NCBI GenBank assembly: GCA_017591395.1
Contig: WEDG01000317.1
Coordinates: forward strand, 62,001-126,000
DNA length: 64,000 bases
Source: Schistocephalus solidus
Lineage: Eukaryota; Platyhelminthes; Cestoda; Diphyllobothriidea; Diphyllobothriidae
Reading direction: 5' to 3'
The translations under genes and the position numbers were made by a program. Under the pieces are notes generated by a model that searched no databases, was not told the origin of the DNA, and was given only the letters and a program-made list of their open reading frames with translations. Below, piece after piece: positions 7,332 through 55,159 of this stretch. Numbering within the stretch: position 1 is the first letter of the stretch; each line of letters begins with the position of its first letter.

Positions 7332-8131
7332 AGAGAGAGAGAGAGAGAGTAGTAGTATTAGTAGCAATATAAGTAGTTGCAGTAGTAGTGGTGGTAGTAG
7401 CAGCAATAGAATTAGTAGTAGCAGTAGGAGGAGTAGTCGTTGTAGTAGTAGTAGTAATAGTAGTAGTATTAGTAGAAGTAGTAGTAGAAATAGTAGAGTA
7501 TTTGTTGTTGTATTAGTAGTAGCAGTAGCAGCAACAATAGAAAGAGTGGTAGTTACAGTACTAGTGGTAGTAGGAGTAGTAGTAGCAGCAATATAATTAA
7601 TAGTAGGAGTAGCAGTAGTAGCAATATAAGTTTTTGCAGTAGTAGCGGTAGTAGTTGTTAGAGTAGTAGCAGCAGCAATAGAAGTAGTAGTGGCACAAAT
7701 AGTGGTAGTAGTATTAGTAGTAGTAGAATTAGGGGTAGAAGAAGTAATTGTTGTACTATTGTTAGTAGTGGTAGTAGAAGCAGCAGCAGCAATAAAAGTA
7801 GTCGTAGTAGTGGAAGAAGCAGTAGCAGTAGTAGATGCAGTAGTAGTTTTATTATTATTAGTAGTAGTACTAGTAGCAGAATTAGTACTAGTATTAGAAG
7901 TAGTAATAGTAGCAGTAGCAATATAAGTAGTTGCAGTAATGGTAGTAGTAGCAGCAGCAATAGCAGCAGCAGTAGTAGCAGTAGCAGCAGCATTAGCAGC
8001 AGCAGCAGTAGCAGTAGTAGTAGCAGTAGGGACATAGTCAGTAGTAGTCAGTAGCAGAGCAGTAGTAGCTAGTATAAAGTAGCTGATAGTAAGTTGTTGC
8101 AGTAGTAGTAGTAGTAGTAGTAGTAGAAGTA

Positions 8132-8178
<47 letters not shown>

Positions 8179-8833
8179 TGTAGTAGCAGCAGCAGCAGCA
8201 GCAACAGCAATACAAGTAGTTGTAGTAGTAGTAGTAGTGGTAGTAGCAGTAGTAGTAGTAGTTGCAGTAGTAGTGGTAGTAATAGTAGCAATATAAGAAG
8301 TTGCAGTAGTATTAGTAGTAGTAGGAGGAGTAATAGTAGTAGAAGTAGTAGTAGTAGTAATATAAGCAGATGCAGTAGTAGTGGTAGTATTAATCGTTAT
8401 TGTATTAGTAATAGCAGTAACAACAGCAATAGAATAAGTTGTAGAAGTAGTGGTAGTAATAGTAGTAAAATAAGAAGTTGCAGTAGTAGTAGAAGCAATA
8501 TAAGCAGCTGCAGTAGTAGCAGCAGAAATACAAGTAGTTATAGTAGAGTCGGTAGTAGCAGTAGTAGTAGTATTAGAAGTGGTAGTAGTAGTAGCAATAT
8601 AAGAAATTGCAGTATAAGTAGTAGGAGTACGAGTAGTAGCAGTAGTAGTAGGAGGAGGAGCAATAGTAGTAGAAGTAGGAGTAGTAGTAGTACTGGTAGT
8701 AGAATTAGCAGTGGTAGTAGTCAGTGGTGGTAGTAGTAGTAGAAGAAGTAGTAGTAGTAACTGCAGTAGTAGTGGAAGTAATAGTAGCAATATAAGAAGT
8801 TGCAGTAGTATAAGTAGAATTAGTAGTAGTAGT

Positions 8834-8864
<31 letters not shown>

Positions 8865-9074
8865 CAATATAAGCAGGTGCAGTAGTATTGGTAGTAGTAG
8901 TAGCAGCATTAATACAAGTAGTTATAGAAGTATTGGTTGTAGCAGTAGTAGTGGTATTAGTAGTGGTATTATTAGTGGTCGTAGTAGTAGCAATATAAGC
9001 AGTTGCAGTATTAGTAGTAGTAGTACGAGTAATAGTAGTAGTAGTAGTAGTAGTATGAGAAGGAGTAATAGTAT

Positions 9075-9107
<33 letters not shown>

Positions 9108-9115
9108 AAGTAGTA

Positions 9116-9159
<44 letters not shown>

Positions 9160-9175
9160 ATAATAGTAGGAAAGA
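7332..9175 (+). repeat. Degenerate (AGT)n trinucleotide tract filling intron 7
   Basis: About 1.85 kb of near-perfect three-base register, mostly AGT with CAG, AAT, AGG and TGG variants. It spans almost the whole 1917-bp intron 7. A higher-order unit recurs: GCAATATAAG, a variable codon or two, then TGCAGTAGTAG. Examples lie near 7362, 7919, 8358, 8497, 8595, 8789, 8866 and 8989. In the transcript sense it is a G-poor ACT/TAC tract. Long Leu, Thr or Tyr frames on the minus strand are a product of the periodicity and are not genes. Confidence 0.95.
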
Positions 9176-17399: not shown

Positions 17400-18230
17400 A
17401 CTTTATTATGTAAATTTTCGACGCTGGCACCCCAGATCGTCGTCAGACTTGTGGTAAGTGTGCAAAAACAGTTCAAATTTGACACGTGCCGGAAAAATCG
17501 ATATTGCTTTGTCATTCCTGCCAATTGTTGTCATTGTGGGGGCATTTACATTTGGATTGGCTGTCGTTTCTTCCCGCTTTCTTTCAGGTAGTCGTACACA
17601 TGGTCCAATTCGATGCGTCGGTTGATGCATGAGTCATCTGAGAAAAACGGCCTCTAAAAAAATTCTCGGCCTTTCTTAGATGGACAGGAGGCAACAATGC
17701 GGGTTTTGTCCCAGGCAAATTTGTGTCCTGTTTCTAGCGTGTGCATGGCAACTTGAGACAAGTGGTCTCGCCTCCTTACTGCCAATTGATGTTCGTGTAT
17801 GCGCGTGGAGGCTGATTTTTCCTGTCTGACCACAGTACACCGCATTGCAGCTGTTACATGGTATCTTGTAAACGACTTCTTTTTTATCTAAATAGCCAAC
17901 CCTATCCTTAGGGTGTACAAGCTGGTTTCGAAGTGTAGTCGTTGGTTTGTGCGCCACTTGGATTTGATGTTTCCCGCAGGTGTCTTTCAACGAGTTCGGA
18001 CACGTTCTTGATGTACGGAAGTGTTCGCCAGTTCTTTGATTTGGGCGCTTGACCGGAACAATCTAGTTCCTTGTCTTTTTCCTTTTTTTCTTTTTAACTT
18101 CTGTCGTCTCATGCATCGACGTACAAATTCTCTTGGATAACCATTTCTGCAAAATAGTTTGAATAAATAACTGAGTTCGTTTTGGTAGAGTTCATTATCA
18201 GAACACTCACTAATGTGGTAAGGATCTCAC
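17400..18230 (-). pseudogene. PLE-B second copy, inverted
   Basis: Reading the minus strand gives the same RT thumb and GIY-YIG order as 15764-16717, including RVGYLDKKEVVYKIPCNSCN and TRIHEHQLAVRRRDHL. A frameshift near 17820 splits the endonuclease into two frames (17676-17990 and 17654-17845). With the forward copy it makes an inverted repeat of about 0.8 kb around the R1 insertion. Confidence 0.85.
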
Positions 18231-18517
18231 TCGATCCCATTTGTCCGCCCGCCAGTTACCGACCGGCGATAAACGAACGTTGTGTCATAGGACACATACC
18301 ATATATATAGCACAAATATGTCGCTAAGAGTGCAACAGGCAAGACGGGCGGACAAATGGGATCGAGTGAGATCCTTACCACATTAGTGAGTGTTACGCAC
18401 TTGTTTGGCTTGTTTATGTACCTCACTGCACAAGGCATATGATGTACTGATGATCGGTAATGACCGTGAAACAGCTGTCTGCGTCTTGCCTGTTGCACTC
18501 TTAGCAACATATTTGTG

Positions 18518-18530
<13 letters not shown>
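18206..18530. repeat. Nested inverted repeats beside (AT)n
   Basis: Two arm pairs. CACTAATGTGGTAAGGATCT at about 18208-18254 is inverted at about 18346-18394. TAGCACAAATATGTCGCTAA at about 18308-18347 is inverted at about 18482-18520. Confidence 0.75.

Positions 18531-18593
<63 letters not shown>
18519..18593 (+). repeat. (AT)n microsatellite
   Basis: About 37 uninterrupted AT repeats. Confidence 0.97.
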
Positions 18594-18595
<2 letters not shown>

Positions 18596-18639
18596 CTAAT
18601 AGAAGCGAAGATGCGCGTTCCCGGAAATAAATGAGAAGA

Positions 18640-18800
18640 AGAGGCGATCACGGGAACCGTTAGTTGGATGATCAACGCTCAAACCCACTGCGCCACAAGC
18701 TCGTTGTCTTGCTGGTTTCGATTGGGAATATAAGCATTGATGGATGGACGCTCAGCGATCGCTTACGGGACTCGCTCGTCCCGCTCTGCCTCTGGATTAA
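18640..18800 (-). repeat. SINE fragments, reverse oriented
   Basis: A box B/box A head remnant (CTCAAACCCACTGCGCCACAAG) is followed by the tail of another copy (CAGCGATCGCTTACGGGACTC, CTCGTCCCGCTCTGCC). It ends 90 bp from the exon 6 donor. Confidence 0.65.
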
Positions 18801-30772: not shown

Positions 30773-33700
30773 TCACCACAGGTTGTCGTGGAGGCGCATG
30801 TGTCCCGATAGGCCCATGCGGTGTGTAAATGTGCGGGAGTAGTGAGGGCAGTGGAGGCGGGCGCGGCGAGTGTATGTCGGAGCCCTAGGCACTGGTTAAC
30901 CAGCCTCCGTGCAATGGATTCGCAAGTGACCGACCAGGCCGATGCGGGAGGTGAATGTGCGGTCGCATTGAGGACAGTTTAGGAAAGAGTCCCTATAGCT
31001 GGTGGTGGTGGTGGTGACGGCGGCGGCGGCGGCGAAAGCGGTGGTGGTTGCGTTGGTGGGGGCTTAACAGGCGATGAGTATTCGGGATGTGGTCTCTATG
31101 ATGGTGGGAGTAATGGAATTGATACCAGGAGTGAGGGTGGGGGAGTCTGAAGGAGGGTTGGCAGGATTTGACGAAGTTGGAATTTTCGGATTGTGCATTG
31201 CGTTCGAAGATGTTCAACCAGGCCGATTCGCGCGCGGAAGATGCGTTGACAGAGCAGGCATGTTGGAAGGGCCTGGGCATCGGCGGTGCTGGTCCGGGGC
31301 GCTGGTGACTTTCGAGCCGCTCTTTTAGCCTTGGCGGCGGCGATCCGGTTGGCCTCATAGATTGCTGAACCAGTATTCAAGGATCTTCTCTATGCCGGTC
31401 TATCCTGGGCGAGATCCTCCAGGTCGCCGGTTTGATTTGCAGTTGCTTCAAAGATTTTCAAGGTGACGTCCCTGTCACCGAGCACCCGTAGCTACATCTC
31501 CGTAGAAAAGTCGTTTGAGTAGTCGCTCGTCGTCATTCTCACCAGGGGTGGCCGCTCCATCGCAGTTGCACTTGCCTCAGCATGGAGTGGATGCTGAGGA
31601 TTCCGGTCTGCTCCAGGACTTCCGTGTCCGGGATCCTGTCTTGACATCTCAGCTTCAGTATTTTGCGGAGGCAGCTGAGATAGAAAAGATTCAGCTTCCT
31701 GGCTGGGTTCGAGTAGACGGTCCAGGTCTCCGCTCCGTAAAGGAGTGTCGTCAAGACGCAAGGCCTTATACATCTTCAGTTTGGTGTTCACGTGAATACC
31801 GTGGCGATTCCACACGGAGGCCTGCAGCCGGCCGAAGGCCTCACAGGCTTTGGATATCCGTTGGGCAACCTCGTCATCGATTCTCGTGTTGCGTGGCAGC
31901 GTGTTTCCTAGATAAGCGAAGGTTTTCATATGTTTGAGTTGAGCACAGTTGAAATTGCTTCAGGGAGCATTGCATTCTGCGCTGGGCGGCGGTTGGTGCA
32001 TGACAATCATTTTGGCTGTACTGATTGTTAATTCAAAATTGGCGCAGCCTGCGGCGAAGAGGTCCATGCTCCTTTGCATGTCCTCTTCTGTCACGGTGTT
32101 AAGGGCGCAGTCGTCCGCGAAGAGCAAGTCATGGACTAGACACGGGCGTTGAAGCCTGCATACGCCGACTGTTGACAAGGTGCCCGTCAGTTCTGTAGGC
32201 GATGCGGATCACAGGCTGCTCATCACGGTAGGCGTCCATCCGCATAGCCGAGAACATGAGACTGAACAGGGTGGGGGCCAATACGCAGCCCTGCTTAACT
32301 CTGTTGGTCACCGCGAATGCTTCGGATACAATTCCGTTGTCAGTGACGCGCGCCGTCATCCCGTCATGAAGCTGACGCAGCATGTGCGTGACCCGCTCAG
32401 GACAGCCGAATTTCTGCTTGACTTTCCACAGTCCGTGACGATTTACCGTGTCAAAGGCTTTCGTCAGATCCACAAAGGTAGTGTATAGGTGAATTCGCAT
32501 CTCCTGGCATTTCTCTGGTAGCTGGCGGGCGGCAAACATCATGTCAGTTGTTCCGCGGCGTCGAAGGAAACCACATTGGCTTTGCGGGCGCAGGCCTTGC
32601 TCTAGGTGACCGTTCAGACGATTGAGAAGGATACGGGGGAATATCTTTCCGGCGATGTGGAGCAACGAGATGCCTCTGTGATTATCACAGAATTGCCGGT
32701 TCCATGTCAATTTGTAGAGCGGGACGATGGTCGCTTCTTTGAAATCCTGAGGAACTTGTCCTTGGTGCCACATCTCCTGGAAGAGTGTTGTGAGTTCTGC
32801 CATCAGCCGGGGCCCACCGTGCTTGTAGACTTCCGGTGGGATTGCGTCGGATCCCGGTGCTTTACCGCTGGAAATCTGCTGCACGACCCTGATGGTTGTT
32901 GGTAGGGAAAGCGGCAGATCCAGGTCATTGTTCGTGTGCACTTGAGGGAGCTGGTCAATGGCAGCATCGGAGATGGCTGGTGAGCAATTAAAGGACACTT
33001 CTGAAGTGCTCGGCCCAGCGCTTCAGAATTTGCGATTTCTCTGTCAGCAGTGTTGTGCCGTCAGAGCTGAGCAGCGGTGCGGACCCCTTGATACACGGGC
33101 CATAGATGGCCTTGATGACTTTGAAAAAGTTTTTCATTTCATTGCGGTCCGAATACCCCTGGATTTCCTCAGCCTTTCGGATCATCCAGGCATCCTGCGT
33201 CTTCCACAGCCATTGCCGTACAAGGCGGCGGCATCTGAAGAAGGCTGCTTTGGTGGCATCAGTCCGAAGATCCATGTAGGCTTTGTGCAGTCCATTATTC
33301 TCCACGAGAAAGTTGCTGATGTCGGCGTCATTGTCTACAAACCAGTCCTAGATTTGACGGCGTGCGCGTCCAAGGACATAGAAGGCGGTGGAATGCATGA
33401 CATTTCGCAGTTGACACCATCGTGTTTTTACAGTCCCGTTATTTTCTGGAGCATGCAGGTTCTCGAGGTTCTTGTTTATTTGATTGCTGAAATCAAAACA
33501 GTGAGCAGGCAAATTTAACAAAAGAGTATTAAACTTACCTGGCAGTCGCTAACCTTGGGGCCTTCGTCGGGTTTGCAGTCGGAGCCTCATCTGGGAGATG
33601 ACGAGGCGGTGATCTGTCCAACCATCGGCATCGCGGATCCCTTTGGTTACCAGCACGTCCTGTTGATCTCGCCTCCGGACTAGAACATAGTCCGGCAGCT

Positions 33701-46211: not shown

Positions 46212-46340
46212 TCGACACAGCAACGAGCAGAAACATCGGCGAAACACGTGTCTGGGATTTTAGCTAGTACCCATGTCAGAAGTACGGTATAATGTATTTG
46301 CCATATTAGATTTATACTACTTGTAGTACTATATATATAT
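46212..46340 (+). repeat. Partial retrozyme-type monomer
   Basis: CAGCAGAAACATCGGCGAAACACGTGTCTGGG block and TAGTACCCATGTCAGAAGTACGG follow the monomer at 47.9-48.7 kb, but the CTGAGGA half of the ribozyme is missing. It ends at (AT)n at about 46331. Confidence 0.7.
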
Positions 46341-47604
46341 ATACGTTTCGAAAGCCTTCTCGCTTCCATCATCAGAGTGCATTAGAACTGTGTCTTAAGA
46401 CGTTCTTCACATTCAACGGCCAGGTCTACGAGCAAAAGAAGGGGACGCCAATGGGCTCGCCTCTGTCTGGACTAATTGCCGAAGCAGTTTTGCAGAGGCT
46501 TGAGCAGCTGGTCTTCAGCTCGTACCCACTGAAGTTCTGGGCCAGATACGTCGACGACACGTTCGTTATAATCAGGAGGAGTCACTTGCAGGCTTTCAGG
46601 GCATTTTTGAATTCAATCTTTCCCGACATCCAGTTTACCATGGAGGAATAAGTCAACAATCAGTTGCCCTTCCTTGACGTCCAAGTTACAAAGCTGGCAG
46701 ACGGGAAGATAAGGACAACGGTCTACCATAAGGCAACCAACACTAGGCGCATCCTCCATTTCCGAAGCAACCACCCTGTTGGCCACAAACGCAGTTGTGT
46801 CAGAACTCTTTTCCGACGTGTCCAAACACACTGCAGTGACGACATTGGGAAGAAGGAAGAGATGGAGTACTTACATGCCCTTTTTACAGCCAACGGTTAT
46901 CCAAAGTCCTTCATCCGCAAATGCCTCAGGAAGCCCCAGTTTGAGCGGTCGAACGAAGAAAAGCCAAACTTTTGGCTCGCAATCCCCTATGTAAGGAATG
47001 TTTCAGAGGCGACTGCAAGAATCCTAAAACCTTTTGGGATTGGCGTGGCTCATAAACCAGAATGCATTATCGTACAGCAAGTCATGAATCCCAAAGACCC
47101 GCTACCAGTGACAGAACAATCAGCAGTGGTCTGCAGCATACCATGCCAAAATTGTGATGCAAGTTATGTTGGTGAAACGGGCAAGTGCCTGGGCACAAGG
47201 TTACATGAACACTAACTTGCAATCAACCGCAAAGACAAGTTGTCTTTGGTTTATGGTCACGCACAACCGCTGAACCATGATTTCGCCTTTGAGAAAACAA
47301 GGGTGATTGGCCGAGCCAATGAGAATATGGCAAGACTGGTGCTCAAGAGCTAGTCCTCGACTGGCACACTCAACCGAGCTATAGACTTACATCCCGCCTA
47401 CCAGGCGCTTCGTACACGGCTCGGATCAGTTCGGCCAGGGCCAATAAGGCAAACGAGCACACGGAACCGAGAGCCCAGGCTCACGGAAAAGCGGGGTGGC
47501 GGCCGAAGGTCAAATGACCAAAGTCAAAAACTGCCTCACGAATGCGCCCGTAAAATGGATAACAACTCACGATAGCAGCAACGACTGATCAGTCCGCTGA
47601 ATAG
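46341..47604 (+). pseudogene. PLE-A copy 3, 5'-truncated and fused to an inverted terminal repeat
   Basis: Starts with the reverse-oriented PLE-A terminal-repeat hairpin (TCATCAG at 46369-46375), then joins the PLE-A frame in mid-RT at TTAGAACTGTGTC. It keeps GTPMGSPLSG and YVDDTFVI, the LPFLDV motif, the thumb and the GIY-YIG start SIPCQNCDASYVGETGK. It has a TAA at 46649-46651 and another at 47213-47215. RT motif A is absent. Confidence 0.9.
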
Positions 47605-47655
47605 TATATGGCAAAGACGTTATACCGTACTTCCGACATAGATACTAGCTAAAAG

Positions 47656-47728
47656 CGCAGACACGTGTTTCGCCGATGTTTCTGCTGCTGTGTGACTACA
47701 GCAACGAGGGGTTCGGCTCCTCAGTGGG
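47656..47728 (-). ncRNA. Hammerhead ribozyme motif in inverted retrozyme arm (stem I mutated)
   Basis: Same motif as the forward copies, read on the minus strand. The 3' side of stem I is TGCG instead of TGGG, breaking one pair. Confidence 0.55.
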
Positions 47729-47899
47729 TCCCCAGCGTTCTCTATGCGGTTTCTGGTATATGGACTCCAGAGAATAATCGGGTAAATAATTTCTGAAATT
47801 ATTAAGTGCAGGACATGGAGTCAGGTGCTTCGGACATGACATTACCCGATTATTCTCTGGAGTCCATATACCAGAAACCGCAAAGAGAACGCTGGGGGA

Positions 47900-47971
47900 C
47901 CCACTGAGGAGCCGAACCCCTCGTTGCTGTGTCACACAGCAGCAGAAACATCGGCGAAACACGTGTCTGGG
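47900..47971 (+). ncRNA. Type I hammerhead ribozyme, retrozyme monomer 1
   Basis: Stem I CCCA/TGGG; core CTGAGGA (47904-47910); helix II GCCGA/TCGGC (47911-47915, 47951-47955) enclosing an internal hairpin GCTGTG-TCA-CACAGC; GAAA (47956-47959). Stem III is AC/GT with loop ACGT. The cleavage triplet GTC has the predicted cut between 47967 and 47968. All catalytic core positions fit the CTGANGA...GAAA consensus. Confidence 0.75.
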
Positions 47972-48253
47972 CTTTTAGCTAGTATCTATGTCGGAAGTAC
48001 GGTATAACGTCTTTTGCCATATAATATTCATACTACTTGTAGTACTACTTGTATGTAGAATGGGCATTACGTGGTTATACCACAGTGGTTGATTGTCTTC
48101 GACCCAAATGTTCATTGAAATTTCGGGTCTGACCCTAAAAAGTCATGTCCGAAGCACCTGACTCCATGTCCTGCACTTAATAATTTCAGAAATTATTTCC
48201 CCGATTATTCTCTGGAGTCCATATACCAGAAACCGCATAGAGAACGCTGGGGA

Positions 48254-48325
48254 CCCACTGAGGAGCCGAACCCCTCGTTGCTGTGTCACACAGCAGCAGA
48301 AACATCGGCGAAACACGTGTCTGGG
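48254..48325 (+). ncRNA. Type I hammerhead ribozyme, retrozyme monomer 2
   Basis: Identical pairing to monomer 1. Predicted cut between 48321 and 48322, so cleavage at both sites would release a 354-nt RNA. Confidence 0.75.
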
Positions 48326-48607
48326 CTTTTAGCTAGTATCTATGTCGGAAGTACGGTATAACGTCTTTGCCATATAAGATTCATACTACTTGTAGTACTA
48401 CTTGTTTGTAGAATGGGCATTACGTGGTTATACCACAGTGGTTGATTGTCTTCGACCCAAATGTTCATTAAAATTTCGGGTCTGACCCTAAAAAGTCATG
48501 TCCGAAGCACCTGACTCCATGTCCTGCACTTATTAGTTTCAGAAATTATTTACCCCGATTATTCTCTGGAGTCCATATACCAGAAACCGCATAGAGAACG
48601 CTGGGGA

Positions 48608-48678
48608 CCCACTGAGGAGCCGAACCCCCGTTGCTGTGTCACACAGCAGCAGAACTATCGGCGAAACACGTGTCTGGG
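48608..48678 (+). ncRNA. Type I hammerhead ribozyme, retrozyme monomer 3
   Basis: Core, stem I and stem III are intact; helix II GCCGA/TCGGC is kept. Predicted cut between 48674 and 48675, 353 nt from the previous one. Confidence 0.72.
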
Positions 48679-48720
48679 CTTTTAGCTAGCATCTATGTCG
48701 GAAGCCGGCATAACGTTCTT

Positions 48721-48724
<4 letters not shown>

Positions 48725-48800
<76 letters not shown>
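48725..48800 (+). repeat. (AT)n microsatellite
   Basis: About 38 AT units with one interruption, directly after the truncated third retrozyme monomer. The stretch 48801-49033 is not otherwise recognised. Confidence 0.95.
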
Positions 48801-49354
48801 GGAGGAATGGACATTTATTGGAAGACAAGATACTATCATTATTGACATGCTGCACTCAGTGGATCACCTGGACCGTGACGTGAGTCGAACGGGACATTTA
48901 TCGGGCTCGTTGTCAGAAATGATGCAGATCGGGAATACGATGATGAGGGTCATCGAACATGCATAGTGGATGGATAGCAGCTGCAGCCAGATTGCATAGC
49001 GACGTAGAAGCATGATGGATGGAGATATCAGGGAGACCGGGACGGCCATTTCTGGCTTATGACGGCTAATAAGCCAGAAATGGCCATTCCGGTCTCCCCT
49101 TTGTCTTTGTCGGTTCCATTCCATCATATGCTATACGTCGCTATGCGACCGCTCGCGAGGGCTCTAGTCTGAGCTCCAGGGCACAACGGAACATGCATGT
49201 TCCTTAAGCAGATCGGTGAGCCCCACACTATCATCATATTCCCGATCACAACCGACAAAACAACGAGCCCGTGGCTCAAATGGTAGAGCGTTCGACTCAA
49301 ATACCAAAGGTCGTGGGTTCGAATCCCAGGTGTGCCACACTTGGGATTGGGTAT

Positions 49355-49399
49355 GACTGGCTGATGACGGCTAATAAGCCAGAAATGGCCATTCCGGTC
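49355..49399 (+). ncRNA. Hammerhead-like segment, SINE array unit 1
   Basis: Stem I GACTGG/CCGGTC (six pairs, one G-U); CTGATGA 49361-49367; helix II GGCT/AGCC with loop AATA; GAAA 49382-49385; stem III AT/AT with loop GGCC; triplet ATT, predicted cut 49393/49394. The C-A opposition next to helix II departs from consensus and may weaken activity. Equivalent segments are at 49664-49708, 49968-50012 and 50265-50309. Confidence 0.6.
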
Positions 49400-49663
49400 T
49401 CCCCTTTGTCTTTGTCGGTTCCATTCCATCATATGCTATACGTCGCTATGCGACCGCCTGCGAGGGCTCTAGTCTGAGCTCCAGGGCACAACGGAACATG
49501 CATGTTCCTTAAGCAGATCGGTGAGCCCCCACACTATCATCATATTCCCGATCACAACCGACAAAAACAACGAGCCCGTGGCTCAAAATGGTAGAGCGTT
49601 CGACTCCAAATACCAAAGGTCGCGGGTTCGAATCCCAGGTGTGCCACACTTGGGATTGGGTAT

Positions 49664-49708
49664 GACTGGCTGATGACGGCTAATAAGCCAGAAATGGCCA
49701 TTCCGGTC
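49664..49708 (+). ncRNA. Hammerhead-like segment, SINE array unit 2
   Basis: Same pairing as unit 1. Predicted cut 49702/49703, 309 nt from unit 1. Confidence 0.6.
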
Positions 49709-49967
49709 TCCCTTGTCTTTGTCGGTTCCATTCCATCATATGCTATACGTCGCTATGCGACCGCCTGCGAGGGCTCTAGTCTGAGCTCCAGGGCACAACG
49801 GAACATGCATGTTCCTTTAAGCAGATCGGTGAGCCCCACACTATCATCATATTCCCGATCACAACCGACAAAACAACGAGCCCGTGGCTCAAATGGTAGA
49901 GCGTTCGACTCAAATACCAAAGGTCGCGGGTTCGAATCCCAGGTGTGCCACACTTGGGATTGGGTAT

Positions 49968-50012
49968 GACTGGCTGATGACGGCTAATAAGCCAGAAATG
50001 GCCATTCCGGTC
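49968..50012 (+). ncRNA. Hammerhead-like segment, SINE array unit 3
   Basis: Same pairing. Predicted cut 50006/50007, 304 nt from unit 2. Confidence 0.6.
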
Positions 50013-50264
50013 TCCCTTGTCGGTTCCATTCCATCATATGCTATACGTCGCTATGCGACCGCCTGCGAGGGCTCTAGTCTGAGCTCCAGGGCACAACGGA
50101 ACATGCATGTTCCTTAAGCAGATCGGTGAGCCCCACACTATCATCATATTCCCGATCACAACCGACAAAACAACGAGCCCGTGGCTCAAATGGTAGAGCG
50201 TTCGACTCAAATACCAAAGGTCGCGGGTTCGAATCCCAGGTGTGCCACACTTGGGATTGGGTAT

Positions 50265-50309
50265 GACTGGCTGATGACGGCTAATAAGCCAGAAATGGCC
50301 ATTCCGGTC
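50265..50309 (+). ncRNA. Hammerhead-like segment, SINE array unit 4
   Basis: Same pairing. Predicted cut 50303/50304, 297 nt from unit 3. Confidence 0.6.
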
Positions 50310-50443
50310 TCCCCTTGTCTTTGTCGGTTCCATTCCATCATATGCTACACGTCGCTATGCGACCGCCTGCGAGGGCTCTAGTCTGAGCTCCAGGGCACAA
50401 CGGAACATGCATGTTCCTTAAGCAGATCGGTGAGCCCCACACT

Positions 50444-50445
<2 letters not shown>

Positions 50446-50484
<39 letters not shown>
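50446..50484 (+). repeat. (AT)n microsatellite
   Basis: Separates the SINE array from PLE-A copy 2. Confidence 0.95.
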
Positions 50485-50487
<3 letters not shown>

Positions 50488-52062
50488 TAAAGATTCGAGG
50501 TCCCGTTATCTTATCGCGTTCATCATCTCCTGAAGAAGACGAAGAAGAAGATGGGGCGAGTTCATGGACCAAATTGTATTTGTACTGACGTTTCGAAAGC
50601 CTTCTCGCTTCCATCATCAGAGTAAAGTGCTTGCTGCTCCTGGTGGTCTTGAGTTAGTCAGTCTTGCCGCGTGTCTCGTATTATATCCATGGTGGACGCG
50701 TGAACTTTGACCTGCCCGATCGCCGCTGACTTCCTTAGACCTCCCGAGGTCGAACGCCGGCGGGCTCGCGTGACTGCTGTCCCCTTTGGAGCCGTCGTAG
50801 GTTTAGGCAAGGCAGCGTGCCTGTTGGCCTCCCCCACGTCAATCAGCGGACTGATCAGTCGTTGCTGCTCTCGTGAGTTGTTATCCGTTTTACGGGCGCA
50901 TTCGTGAGGCAGTTTTGACTTTGGTCATTTGACCTTCGGCCGCCACCCCGCTTTTCCGTGAGCCTGGGCTCTCGGTTCCGTGTGCTCGTTTGCCTTATTG
51001 GCCCTGGCCGAACTGATCCGAGCCGTGTACGAAGCGCCTGGTAGGCGGGATGTAAGTCTATAGCTCGGTTGAGTGTGCCAGTCGAGGACCAGCTCTCGAG
51101 CACCAATCTGGCCATCTTCTCATTGGCTCGGCCAATCACCCTTGTTTCTCAAAGGCGAAATCATGGTTCAGCTGTTGTGCGTGACCATAAACCAAAGACA
51201 ACTTGTCTTTGCGGTTGATTGCAAGTTGGTGTTCATGCAACCTTGTGCCCAGGCGCTTGCCCGTTTCACCAACATACCTTGCATCACAATTTTGGCATGG
51301 TATGCTGCAGACCACTGCTGATTGTTCTGTCACTGGTAGCGGGTCTTTGGGCTTCATGACTTGCTGTCTGATAGTGCATTCTGGTTTATGAGCCACGCCA
51401 ATCCCAAAAGGTTTTAGGATTCTTGCAGTCGCCTCTGAAACGTTCCTCACATAGGGGATTGCGAGCCAAAACTTTGGCTTTTCTTCATTCGACCGCTCAA
51501 ACTGAGGCTTCCTGAGGCATTTGCGGATGAAGGACTTTGGATAACCGTTGGCTGTAAAAAGGGCATGTAAGTACTCCATCTCCTCCTTCTTCCCACTGTC
51601 GTCGCTGCAGTGTGTTTGGACACGTCGGAAGAGGGTTCTGACACAACTGCGTTTGTGGCCAACAGGGTGGTTGCTTCGGAAATGGAGGATGCGCCTAGTG
51701 TTGGTTGCCTTACGGTAGACCGTTGTCCTTATCTTCCCGTCTGCCAGCTTTGTAACTTGGACGTCAAGGAAGGGCAACTGATTGTTGACTTATTCCTCCA
51801 TGGTAAACTGGATGTCGGGAAAGATTGAATTCAAAAATGCCCTGAAAGCCTGCAAGTGACTCCTCTTGATTATGACGAACGTGTCGTCGACGTATCTGGC
51901 CCAGAACTTCAGTGGGTACGAGCTGAAGACCAGCTGCTCAAGCCTCTGCAAAACTGCTTCGGCAATTAGTCCAGACAGAGGCGAGCCCATTGGCGTCCCC
52001 TTCTTTTGCTCGTAGACCTGGCCGTTGAATGTGAAGAACGTCTTAAGACACAGTTCTAATGC
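50485..52062 (-). pseudogene. PLE-A copy 2, reverse oriented, 5'-truncated
   Basis: The minus strand starts at the same mid-RT junction as copy 3 (TTAGAACTGTGTC) and abuts the terminal repeat of copy 1 at 52063. It keeps GTPMGSPLSG, YVDDTFVI, LPFLDV, the thumb and a GIY-YIG domain that runs further than in the other copies (RLHEHQLAINRKDKLSLVYG). It shares the stop after FTMEE with copy 3. Its 3' terminal repeat with hammerhead-like hairpin is at 50573-50620. Head-to-head with copy 1. Confidence 0.9.
50573..50620 (-). ncRNA. Hammerhead-like motif in PLE-A copy 2 terminal repeat
   Basis: Minus-strand copy of the same motif, TCATCAG at 50614-50620. Confidence 0.48.
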
Positions 52063-52103
52063 ACTCTGATGATGGAAGCGAGAAGGCTTTCGAAACGTCA
52101 GTA
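52061..52103 (+). ncRNA. Hammerhead-like motif in PLE-A 5' terminal repeat
   Basis: CTGATGA (52066-52072), one extra T, helix II GGAAGC-GAGAAG-GCTTTC, GAAA (52092-52095), then C-GTCA-GTA, the minimal stem III layout reported for Penelope hammerheads. Stem I is weak (ACT/AGT at best, needing an alternative cut site). The motif is conserved in four other places in the window. Confidence 0.5.
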
Positions 52104-52524
52104 CAAATACAATTTTGTCCATGAACTCACCCCCTCTTCTTCTTCGTCTTCTTCAGGAGATGATGAACGCGATAAGATAACGGGACCTCGAATCTTTACG
52201 CATATTAGTTTATGCTATGGGCGCACAGCCCTCCACTCGGCACGCAGATGGGAGGCTTTTGCGAGAGTCATCCACCTACGCTCAGCTGAAATTCCTGCAC
52301 CGGTGTCTTGACGAGAACGTCTTACCGAAATGCCTCGCCTGTGAACACTGAACTATCCCAGCGGACGATGGCAGATTTCAAAAAGAGAATGATCAGGGTG
52401 CTAATACGAGATTGTCACGTCCGAATTAACAAATACCGCCGTATGATTGAACAACATTCTTCGACTTGCCAGTTAATCTTTACGATGCACGAATTGGAAA
52501 CCCTCAAAACGGCAATCCTAGACA

Positions 52525-54237
52525 GTGCACGGCGTCATCGCAAATCACGTGATGCCCAGCCCGAGAAAGCAACCCTCCTCCGATGGTGCCCTGGTTCACA
52601 ACTTGTCCTCTCATCGGCTCACTCAGCAACAACTAGCGGTTCTATCCTATGACGCAAAATTCAACACGAAAGATGCTCGACTAGAAGACTTCATTGCATC
52701 CTTCGAGTCGGCTCTCCAGAAGTGCGATGCTGTTGAGGAGTGCAAACGCCATGCGGCAACAAGTAGCAATCTGCTCCTCCAGTACCAACGTCAGACAACT
52801 ATTTCAAAGGCAGAAGAACGAGAACTTCTGAAAATAGGAAAAATAGAGGACATCGTAACCCTGCCCGCAGACAAAGGGCGCTCGACTGTCGTCATGGATA
52901 AGTCTGAGTACGGAGCGAAACTGAGTAACCTCTTGATGGACAAGGAATCCTATGTGCCATCGACTACCAGTGACTTCAAAAAGCTCGTGAACAGCATAAA
53001 CAAGACGGTCGACCAGCTGAGAAAGGTGGGAGCTCTCACGCGAAGAGAAGCGCTGGCCACAAAAGCCACTGATTCCGCGATGGCACGCTTCTACGGCCTG
53101 CCAAAGGTTCACAAGCCAGGAGTGCCCCTACGCCCCATCGTCTCCTTACGTGGCACCCCAACCTTTGGGCTGTCAAAGTGGTTGTATCAGCGACTTTGTT
53201 TCATAACCAAGGATTCGAAGTGGACAGTGAAGTCAGCTGACGAGTTCTTAACGCGCATCAAACATCTTGAAGTAGAGGCAGACGAGGTGATGGTGTCCTT
53301 TGACGTGATCTCGTTATTTACCTCTATCCCACCCGCATCGGCTATCAAAACTATCGACGGCTTTCTCCAGGAAAAATATAACGAGACCGACCAAAAACTC
53401 AAACGAGTGCATATCATCGAACTCCTAGAACTGTGTCTTAAGACGTTCTTCACATTCAACGGCCAGGTCTACGAGCAAAAGAAGGGGACGCCAATGGGCT
53501 CGCCTCTGTCTGGACTAATTGCCGAAGCAGTTTTGCAGAGGCTTGAGCAGCTGATCTTCAGCTCGTACCCACCGAAGTTCTGGGCCAGATACGTCGACGA
53601 CACGTTCGTCATAATCAAGAGGAGTCACTTGCAGGCTTTCAGGGCATTGTTGAATTCAATCTTTCCCGACATCCAGTTTACCATGGAGGAAGAAGTCAAC
53701 AATCAGTTGCCCTTCCTTGACGTCCAAGTTACAAAGCTAGCAGACGGGAAGATAAGGAAAACGGTCTACCATAAGGCAACCAACACTAGGCGCATCCTCC
53801 ATTTCCGAAGCAACCACCCTGTTGGCCACAAACGCAGTTGTGTCAAAACACACTGCAGCGACGACAGTGGGAAGAAGGAGGAGATGGAGTACTTACATGC
53901 CCTTTTTACAGCCAACGGTTATCCAAAGTCCTTCATCCGCAAATGCCTCAGGAAGCCTCAGTTTGAGCGGTCTAATGAAGAGAAGCCAAAGTTATGGCTC
54001 GCAATTCCCTATGTAAGGAATGTTTCAGAGGCGACTGCAAGAATCTTCAAACCTTTTGGGATTGGCGTGGCTCATAAACCAGAATGCACTATCGTACAGC
54101 AAGTCATGAATCCCAAAGACCCGCTACCAGTGACAGAACAATCAGCAGTGGTCTGCAGCATACCATGCCAAAATTGTGATGCAAGTTATGTTGGTGAAAC
54201 GGGCACGTGCCTGGGCACAAGGTTACATGAACACTAA
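52525..54237 (+). CDS. PLE-A reverse transcriptase with N-terminal part of GIY-YIG endonuclease
   Basis: A 570-codon frame. RT motif A is SFDVISLFTSIP (Asp260), motif B GTPMGSPLSG (321-330), motif C RYVDDTFVI (Asp358, Asp359), then LPFLDV (395-400). The fingers region includes LPADKGRSTVVMDKSEY and LPKVHKPGVPLRPIVS, typical of Penelope. The GIY-YIG domain begins at about 544 with SIPCQNCDASYVGETG and is cut by TAA at 54235, where copy 2 has Gln. The same frame continues to about 54597 after the stop. The true N-terminus lies upstream in another frame (from about 52330, MADFKKRMIRVLIRDCHVRI), so a frameshift falls near 52570. A 21-bp in-frame deletion near 53850 is seen relative to copies 2 and 3. 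Probably inactive. Confidence 0.9.
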   Translation: MHGVIANHVMPSPRKQPSSDGALVHNLSSHRLTQQQLAVLSYDAKFNTKDARLEDFIASFESALQKCDAVEECKRHAATSSNLLLQYQRQTTISKAEERELLKIGKIEDIVTLPADKGRSTVVMDKSEYGAKLSNLLMDKESYVPSTTSDFKKLVNSINKTVDQLRKVGALTRREALATKATDSAMARFYGLPKVHKPGVPLRPIVSLRGTPTFGLSKWLYQRLCFITKDSKWTVKSADEFLTRIKHLEVEADEVMVSFDVISLFTSIPPASAIKTIDGFLQEKYNETDQKLKRVHIIELLELCLKTFFTFNGQVYEQKKGTPMGSPLSGLIAEAVLQRLEQLIFSSYPPKFWARYVDDTFVIIKRSHLQAFRALLNSIFPDIQFTMEEEVNNQLPFLDVQVTKLADGKIRKTVYHKATNTRRILHFRSNHPVGHKRSCVKTHCSDDSGKKEEMEYLHALFTANGYPKSFIRKCLRKPQFERSNEEKPKLWLAIPYVRNVSEATARIFKPFGIGVAHKPECTIVQQVMNPKDPLPVTEQSAVVCSIPCQNCDASYVGETGTCLGTRLHEH

Positions 54238-54840
54238 CTTGCAATCAACCGCAAAGACAAGTTGTCTTTGGTTTATGGTCACGCACAACCGCTGAACCAT
54301 GATTTCGCCTTTGCGAAAACGAGGTTGATTGGCCGAGCCAATGAGAATATGGCCAGACTGGTGCTCGAGAGTTGGTCCTCGTGTGGCACACTCAACCCAG
54401 CTATAGACTTACATCCCGCCTACCAGGCGCTTCGTACACGGCTCGGATCAGTTCGGCCAGGGCCAATAAGGCAAACGAGCACACGGAACCGAGAGCCCAG
54501 GCTCACGGAAAAGCGGGGTGGCGGCCGAAGGTCAAATGACCAAAGTCAAAAACTGCCTCACGAATGCGCCCGTAAAACGGATAACAACTCACGATAGCAG
54601 CAACGACTGATCAGTCCGCTGATTGACGTGGGGGAGGCCAACAGGCACGCTGCCTTGCCTAAACCTACGACGGCTCCAAAGGGGACAGCAGTCACGCGAG
54701 CCCGCCGGCGTTCAACCTCGGGGAGGTCTAAGGAAGTCAGCGGCAATCGGGCAGGTCAAAGTTCACGCGTCCACCATGGATATAATACGAGGCACGCGGC
54801 AAGACTGACTAACTCAAGACCACCAGGAGCAGCAAGCACT

Positions 54841-54883
54841 TTACTCTGATGATGGAAGCGAGAAGGCTTTCGAAACGTCAGTA
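54841..54883 (+). ncRNA. Hammerhead-like motif in PLE-A 3' terminal repeat
   Basis: Same sequence as the 5' repeat motif: CTGATGA 54846-54852, GAAA 54872-54875. Stem I could be TACT/AGTA if the cut is after GTC at 54879. Confidence 0.5.
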
Positions 54884-55159
54884 CAAATACAATTTGGTCC
54901 ATGAATTCGCCCCCTCTTCTTCTTCGTCTTCTTCAGGAGAGGATGAACGCGATAAGATAACGGGACGCGCGCACGCCAATCTACTGGCTTCCGGAAACAA
55001 ACAAGCTCTTTATAGATGGCAAAGGCCGCGGGCAGGCAACCAACTGCTAGGCCGAAGTCGACCAACCTATAATTTCAGAGGGACGATGACATAAAATGTG
55101 GTTAAGTCGATACAGTCTGTTCAGGGCTTATTCTGTCTTCCTTCAGGCAATGTGTGTGC

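Follow-up and report, generated by a model that had tools for sequence, protein, structure and literature searches.

Hammerhead-bearing retrozyme-like repeats and a Penelope-like element share (TA)n insertion ends in a tapeworm genome

Tandem or SINE-like repeats that carry a hammerhead ribozyme occur in flatworms, as in the schistosome satellite and Sj-alpha repeats. In a 2020 account of metazoan retrozymes, Penelope-like elements (PLEs) are put forward as strong candidate helpers, on the strength of co-occurrence and of hammerheads common to both (PMC7229834). One PLE, the lizard element Poseidon PAc, has been studied in vitro; it cuts and extends both strands of AT-rich targets and starts reverse transcription at two internal sites, and genomic copies carry a 'tail' of 30-40 bp that corresponds to the stretch between these start sites (PMC11167929). 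No difference in start site was seen between the two strands, and hammerhead mutants were still inserted, findings that weigh against the reading proposed below (PMC11167929). The stretch of tapeworm DNA analysed here (64,000 nucleotides, hereafter the window) contains an array of 354-bp units, each with a predicted hammerhead, which directly abuts a PLE fragment.

The first-pass annotation of the window had recorded three monomers at a period of 353-355 bp, and on this point Tandem Repeats Finder, run on the 64-kb window, and the sequence itself agreed; the program returned an array at 47845-48729 with a period of 353, 2.5 copies and 96% matches. The unit at 48196-48549 served as BLAST query and recovered three plus-strand units from the window, the third partial, together with inverted and truncated copies. 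The right arm of the array (47842..48729, plus strand) comprises 2.5 monomers of 353-355 bp, and at its 3' end, termed site a, lies a (TA)n tract (48725..48800). It is joined 5' to 5' to a left arm on the minus strand (47598..47843), a partial inverted monomer whose outer end, at monomer position 188, abuts a truncated PLE (47597/47598) and is therefore not a canonical (TA)n end. A truncated plus-strand copy (46215..46331, monomer 93-205) ends at a short (TA)n tract; this copy and the inverted arm (47598-47843) are additions to the earlier description. Site a (monomer 168-185; 48363..48380, plus strand) is the position at which arrays end as GCC/ATATA, both in other copies and at 48725, and site b (monomer 1-10; 48196..48205, plus strand) the position at which arrays end as CCCGAT/AT in other genomic copies. 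The 354-bp unit has a GC content of 44%, gave no protein match and lacks the tRNA-like Pol III promoter of an Sm-alpha-like SINE; no tRNA match was found within 47598-48729. Elsewhere in the window, a 1.8-kb tract of AGT triplets (7348-9169; 607 copies, 69% match in Tandem Repeats Finder) is flanked by frames that look, from a motif in them, like histone deacetylase exons.

A near-canonical hammerhead had been claimed for each monomer, with cuts 354 and 353 nt apart, and every part of the motif, which is of type I, could be read in all three units: CCCA / CTGAGGA / GCCGA...TCGGC / GAA / AC-ACGT-GT / C / TGGG. The three plus-strand hammerheads, placed by Rfam alignment and by a descriptor, occupy 47900..47971, 48254..48325 and 48608..48678; cleavage is predicted after 47967, 48321 and 48674, which gives the 354- and 353-nt spacing. 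The inverted arm carries a fourth copy (47656..47728, minus strand), recognized by eye, with a mismatch in stem I (TGCG for TGGG). A strict descriptor (CTGANGA, GAAA, stem I of at least 4, stem II of at least 5 and stem III of at least 2 pairs, cut after NUH) matched the window three times, in exactly these three units; on both strands it gave no match in 60 dinucleotide-shuffled windows and none in 20,000 shuffled monomers. The hammerhead in the 354-bp unit thus exceeds chance expectation.

The covariance-model check proposed earlier was borne out in alignment and not in score: each of the three units aligns with all 45 positions of Rfam Hammerhead_1, yet scores no more than 22.6-22.8 bits (E 0.036-0.041 in a 4.1-kb search), short of the gathering score of 34, and at the gathering threshold no hammerhead was reported in the whole window. 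A lax genome-wide Rfam scan likewise produced no match above the gathering cut-off. Since 11 of 14 unrelated control genomes also gave matches in the lax scan, Rfam was set aside as arbiter. Local fold stability was not unusual (z -1.02; 29 of 200 shuffles were equally good). Folded as a circle, the unit has a predicted energy of -94.0 kcal/mol; in this structure helix II is complete, with five pairs, stem I has three of its four pairs, stem III is absent (p 0.01), and site a falls in an apical hairpin loop. What had been described as the ACGT loop of the hammerhead is the centre of a perfect 8-nt palindrome, ACACGTGT.

The unit is widely dispersed. A search of the 604-Mb assembly returned 615 candidates, of which the best 40 were scored and yielded at least 127 matches; 35 regions covering the listed matches outside the window were taken, making 36 loci with the window. 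Array length among them varies from slightly more than one unit to 18 or more, the latter at L020. Conservation of the core in other genomic copies had been named as a point on which the ribozyme reading would turn, and the core was indeed retained: among the 275 hammerhead-spanning copies at the 36 loci, the window included, 227 keep the CTGANGA/GAA/NUH core, and 217 keep the strict CTGAGGA/GAA/GTC form. The proposed retrozyme-like nature of the array was upheld by its tandem non-coding 354-bp units, by this type I core and by its dispersal. We therefore regard the 354-bp tandem unit as likely to be a metazoan-type retrozyme with predicted ribozyme activity, an identity in which, as far as structure goes, our confidence is high. 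No paper on the 354-bp family was found in a literature composed mostly of papers open without subscription.

The ends of the arrays were surveyed in the window and at 42 loci that had been picked because they contain the monomer or the PLE; the survey took in 101 (TA)n tracts of at least 10 nt, with 199 flanks. These tracts adjoin 34 monomer 3' ends, 31 of which fell at only two sites: 23 at position 176 (site a, from 20 loci) and 8 at position 7/8 (site b), the other three being singles. All ten 5' ends beside (TA)n lay at different positions. Exact junctions were then counted genome-wide; 610 were found for site a against 0 for its reversed control, and 383 for site b against 1. Site a lies 50 nt and site b 235 nt 3' of the predicted cut. 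An identical CCATATA at monomer 24-30 gave a single exact junction in the whole genome, so that microhomology alone does not select the end site. Target-primed reverse transcription leaves 3' ends that are constant and 5' ends that vary, and the retrozyme arrays have both. Because the arrays run through the cleavage site, the template must have been a circle or a multimer, and not a cut linear monomer. Many of the array flanks are themselves (TA)n, in which target site duplications are invisible. At three places (L032:2965-3080, L072 and L055:1-180), convergent elements, either two retrozymes or a retrozyme and a PLE, share one (TA)n tract, and the tracts between them look as if they had been targeted repeatedly.

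Two-armed arrays, in which the arms face outward from a shared 5'-to-5' joint, were recognized by eye at 12 of the 36 loci. In seven of these (L010, L013, L015, L016, L019, L024 and L033; L013, where two units share the inner joint, was counted once) both outer ends are at a or b, and in all seven one end is a and the other b; in the window and at L017, L018, L037 and L043, one arm ends elsewhere or is clipped. A second sample was drawn from the listed site-a and site-b junctions up to contig C851 (100 a, 74 b), from which divergent pairs were taken; it has one pair in common with the first (C79, which is L010). Of the divergent pairs within 3 kb, 12 of 14 were mixed, against an expected fraction of 0.489 (p 0.005), and the remaining two were a/a or b/b; within 5 kb, 12 of 15 were mixed (p 0.014).

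Three PLE copies lie near the array. The 5'-truncated copy that abuts it (46343..47597, plus strand) has RVT_1 in frame 46310-46651, followed by a frame at 46652-47215. A truncated minus-strand copy (50485..52098) has its 3' end, at a position termed site B, against an (AT)n tract (50447-50484). The longest copy in the window (52063..54966, plus strand) contains a reverse transcriptase frame (52522-54237) with RVT_1 over cut-off, and is bounded by a terminal repeat (52063-52186 and 54843-54966) in which a minimal hammerhead-like motif was read by eye: stem I ACT/AGT, CTGATGA and GAAACGTC. An in-frame stop interrupts the frame at 54235-54237, after which it stays open as far as 54597; the minus-strand copy is open across the same place (51136-51789). 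Among the best 120 of 3688 protein matches, the nearest named relatives came from two sources: those of Spirometra/Sparganum are 83% identical and cover 97-98% of the query, whereas two Schistocephalus proteins, at 90% and 82%, cover roughly half. This agrees with the earlier assignment to a flatworm family and makes a diphyllobothriidean tapeworm the most likely host. No GIY-YIG domain was found in the PLE frames of the window; after RVT_1 in all three longer relatives examined it appeared below the Pfam cut-off (E 0.013, 0.013 and 0.00037). The element was identified as a PLE because of its reverse transcriptase, the hammerhead-like motif and these sub-threshold GIY-YIG matches in three relatives. 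When solved structures were searched with the protein of a PLE relative, no match came up.

The PLE was found to end in the same manner as the retrozyme. With its tail as reference, 11 PLE 3' ends lay beside (TA)n: three at a site termed A, seven at site B and one elsewhere; with the body as reference, a further end (L051) lay a few bases past site B. Sites A and B are 75 and about 104 nt past the cut position of the PLE motif, hence about 29 nt apart. Twenty further PLE copies were examined, representing half of the best 40 scored and obtained with a query that passes site A, a sample therefore biased to B; 14 of the 20 end at site B in (TA)n, five continue in the element's own sequence and one ends in other AT-rich DNA. 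Genome-wide, exact site-B junctions numbered 46, against 0 for the control. Two-armed PLE copies were present as well (L050 and L055), with one arm ending at A and the other at B. A likeness among the end sites was noted by eye: TCTTTACGCAT/AT at PLE site B, CTTTGCCAT/AT at site a and TTTACCCGAT/AT at site b. The retrozyme thus matches the autonomous PLE in target and in 3'-end type, and the suggestion that the array was copied by the adjacent PLE machinery is supported by the common (TA)n target, the two-site 3' ends and the two-armed copies. At L012:2727-2863, a diverged PLE ends near site A and, 7 nt on, the 5' end of a retrozyme array begins, with no (TA)n between them; this junction is possibly a template jump by a single enzyme. 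A further, diverged PLE family seems, by eye, to have its 3' end beside (TA)n as well, at 18594-18720 in the window and at L053, L017 and L013.

We reasoned that retrozyme RNAs, likely circles, are probably copied by PLE-type machinery into (TA)n DNA from two internal sites. As predicted from sequence, a multimeric array transcript would cleave itself at each unit and yield 354-nt RNAs, which would then be circularised, as has been reported for retrozymes of coral, mussel and axolotl. A PLE protein, the presumed enzyme behind the observed ends, would cut both strands of (TA)n and prime reverse transcription at site a or site b. The polymerase would circle the template, often for several rounds, past the cleavage site, and would halt anywhere, leaving fixed 3' and variable 5' ends. 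Both DNA ends would be extended, usually one from each site, to give the inverted two-armed array whose structure and a/b pairing are observed, and the two arms may have the same circle as their origin.

PLE-type priming could instead take place on linear multimeric transcripts, for which arrays of at least 18 units (L020) would be available; in vitro, the lizard PLE accepts RNA that has not been processed (PMC11167929). The homogeneity of the arrays bears on this choice. Among copies of at least 93% identity, loci holding a single allele exceeded expectation at site 4 (13 of 27, 2.1 expected), site 95 (22 of 30, 1.9 expected), site 144 (24 of 30, 2.5 expected), site 167 (21 of 30, 9.8 expected), site 175 (24 of 30, 8.9 expected) and site 312 (24 of 29, 4.9 expected); at site 3 (16 of 27, 10.7 expected) and site 275 (9 of 28, 7.1 expected) homogeneity was weak or absent. 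The mean difference between copies was 2.0% within loci and 3.1% between loci. On account of this excess of single-allele loci, each array looks to have been copied from one unit. The alleles of the two arms could be compared at nine loci (L015 and L018 yielded no comparison, and L037 was left out), and agreement is given as a raw count: it was complete at every compared site in four of the nine (L010, L017, L024 and L033), partial at L016, L019, L043 and in the window, and lacking at L013. An origin of both arms from one shared circle is no more than suggested. Homogeneity and mixed a/b arms fit one small circle better than a linear template; on a linear multimer with many a and b sites, a/a and b/b arrays would be expected about as often as mixed ones. 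We consider linear templates rather unlikely.

A second alternative is that the reverse transcriptase was supplied by a LINE. The window also holds two other hammerhead-like families. The first is a tRNA-like tandem family of 304 bp (49052..50452, plus strand; 4.6 copies), whose unit has a tRNA match, whose 3' end is at (AT)n and whose motif reads GACTGG-CTGATGA-cGGCTAATAAGCCa-GAAATGGCCATT-CCGGTC. The other (18220..18519, plus strand) has its 3' end at a (TA)n tract (18519-18593), which begins about 40 nt past the predicted cut; this third family spans 18202-18527 in the window and L014:5359-5880, and was also seen at L011, L018, L027 and L031. In a scan of (TA)n tracts, 20 ends of the 304-bp family were recorded, nine at 183-185, seven at 72-74 and four elsewhere. 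When 40 blocks from the window and the loci were followed to their ends, seven ended at 78 and seven at 189, adjoining (TA)n, and 11 at 58-65, none of them directly at (TA)n and two within about 15 nt of it. This last class indicates that ending in (TA)n is not universal among the retroelements here, a point that counts against a LINE, as does the presence of the retrozyme's target and two-site ends in PLE copies. LINEs or PLEs have been proposed as helpers of metazoan retrozymes (PMC7229834), and the window holds a further reverse transcriptase frame (32129-33022); even so, we judge a LINE source improbable, and PLE-type machinery remains the preferred one.

A second descriptor, in which a palindrome of 6, 8 or 10 nt replaces stem III and helix II may have one unpaired position at its base, matched the three 354-bp units, four 304-bp units and position 18447 in the window, and nothing in 100 shuffled windows. 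All eight matches have an 8-nt palindrome (ACACGTGT in the 354-bp unit, ATGGCCAT in the 304-bp unit and ACAGCTGT in the third family), which for the latter two families is partly a product of how the descriptor was built. A palindromic stem III would suit cleavage as dimers, an idea already raised for those animal type I hammerheads whose helix III is weak (PMC7761336). In the 304-bp family, 36 of 40 copies have C-A as the first pair of helix II, and the window copy of the third family has T-T there; these mismatches make the ribozyme activity of both families doubtful. We put forward, tentatively and as less than an even prospect, that two PLE reverse transcriptases act on one circle at the same time, each with its own start site and each primed from one end of a cut (TA)n tract, so that both travel round the circle and produce an inverted, two-armed rolling-circle array, and that the otherwise unrelated 354-bp, 304-bp and third families share this route along with palindromes through which two ribozymes could pair and cut as dimers. 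If so, they would form a guild of RNA-circle parasites run by PLEs.

That the family is an ordinary satellite, spread by unequal exchange and segmental duplication and carrying the hammerhead incidentally, would accord with its tandem, largely homogeneous arrays. Change per site was 2.7% at the 11 core positions and 4.9% outside the hammerhead; the parts of the hammerhead are also slow overall (2.5-4.0% by part), so that the whole region is affected and not the core alone. At the 11 stem pairs, counted from pairwise BLAST alignments, 81 changed cells break the pair, 45 keep it by a change on one side and four by changes on both sides, these four being confined to divergent copies from L009 and L038. 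An alternative alignment for the pair counts (A1, 59 of 177 distinct hammerhead sequences) was dropped, its GAAA region being misaligned. The excess of breaking over keeping changes, to which the satellite reading can appeal, means that no strong selection on pairing is visible in this young family, and with so few two-sided changes covariation adds little; the 354-bp family is too young for covariation to be informative. Against a satellite stand the slower change of the core, the constant 3' ends and variable 5' ends found in (TA)n at hundreds of dispersed places, unexpected from unequal exchange, and the inverted two-armed arrays with mixed ends, also unexpected. We consider this origin very improbable. 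A reading of the array as a pseudo-LTR belonging to the neighbouring PLE can be dismissed almost entirely: it does abut a PLE fragment directly (47597/47598), and hammerheads do occur in PLE pseudo-LTRs (PMC7761336), but this PLE family has a different terminal repeat of its own (52063-52186, 54843-54966), none of 20 PLE 3' ends enters the monomer directly within 75 nt (L072 meets it across (TA)n), and 27 of the 35 monomer regions have no match to this PLE.

The proposed copying of retrozyme circles by PLE-type machinery can be set beside the known systems. Compared with the schistosome repeats, the 354-bp unit has no tRNA match; its 304-bp neighbour has one and is the closer analogue. The family resembles the non-LTR retrozymes of Metazoa, as described in the accessible part of the 2020 account, in its tandem non-coding units (150-450 bp there), its type I hammerhead, its GC content below 50% and its many dispersed copies, a circular RNA being predicted here (PMC7229834). 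Two-site (TA)n ends and two-armed arrays are seen here in a tapeworm and are absent from that part of the account (PMC7229834); no other report of either feature for retrozymes was found in a literature mostly free of subscription papers, nor any literature combining PLEs, TA repeats and twin priming. The novelty lies in the evidence and not in the kind of explanation, given that help from PLEs or LINEs was already proposed in 2020 (PMC7229834). In one genome, hundreds of junctions now tie retrozymes and a PLE to a common target, a common end type and common two-armed products, and the PLE-helper hypothesis can now be tested directly by offering a 354-nt RNA circle to purified PLE protein. The PLE and retrozyme described here resemble PAc in their AT-rich target, two start or end sites, use of both strands and upstream hammerhead (PMC11167929). 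PAc, however, is an autonomous element whose start sites fall within its ORF, separated by a short tail (PMC11167929), whereas the retrozyme is a 354-bp unit that gave no protein match and has its sites spaced about 170-185 nt apart around the circle. The two-armed arrays may also record the extension of both DNA ends, as reported for a PLE in vitro.
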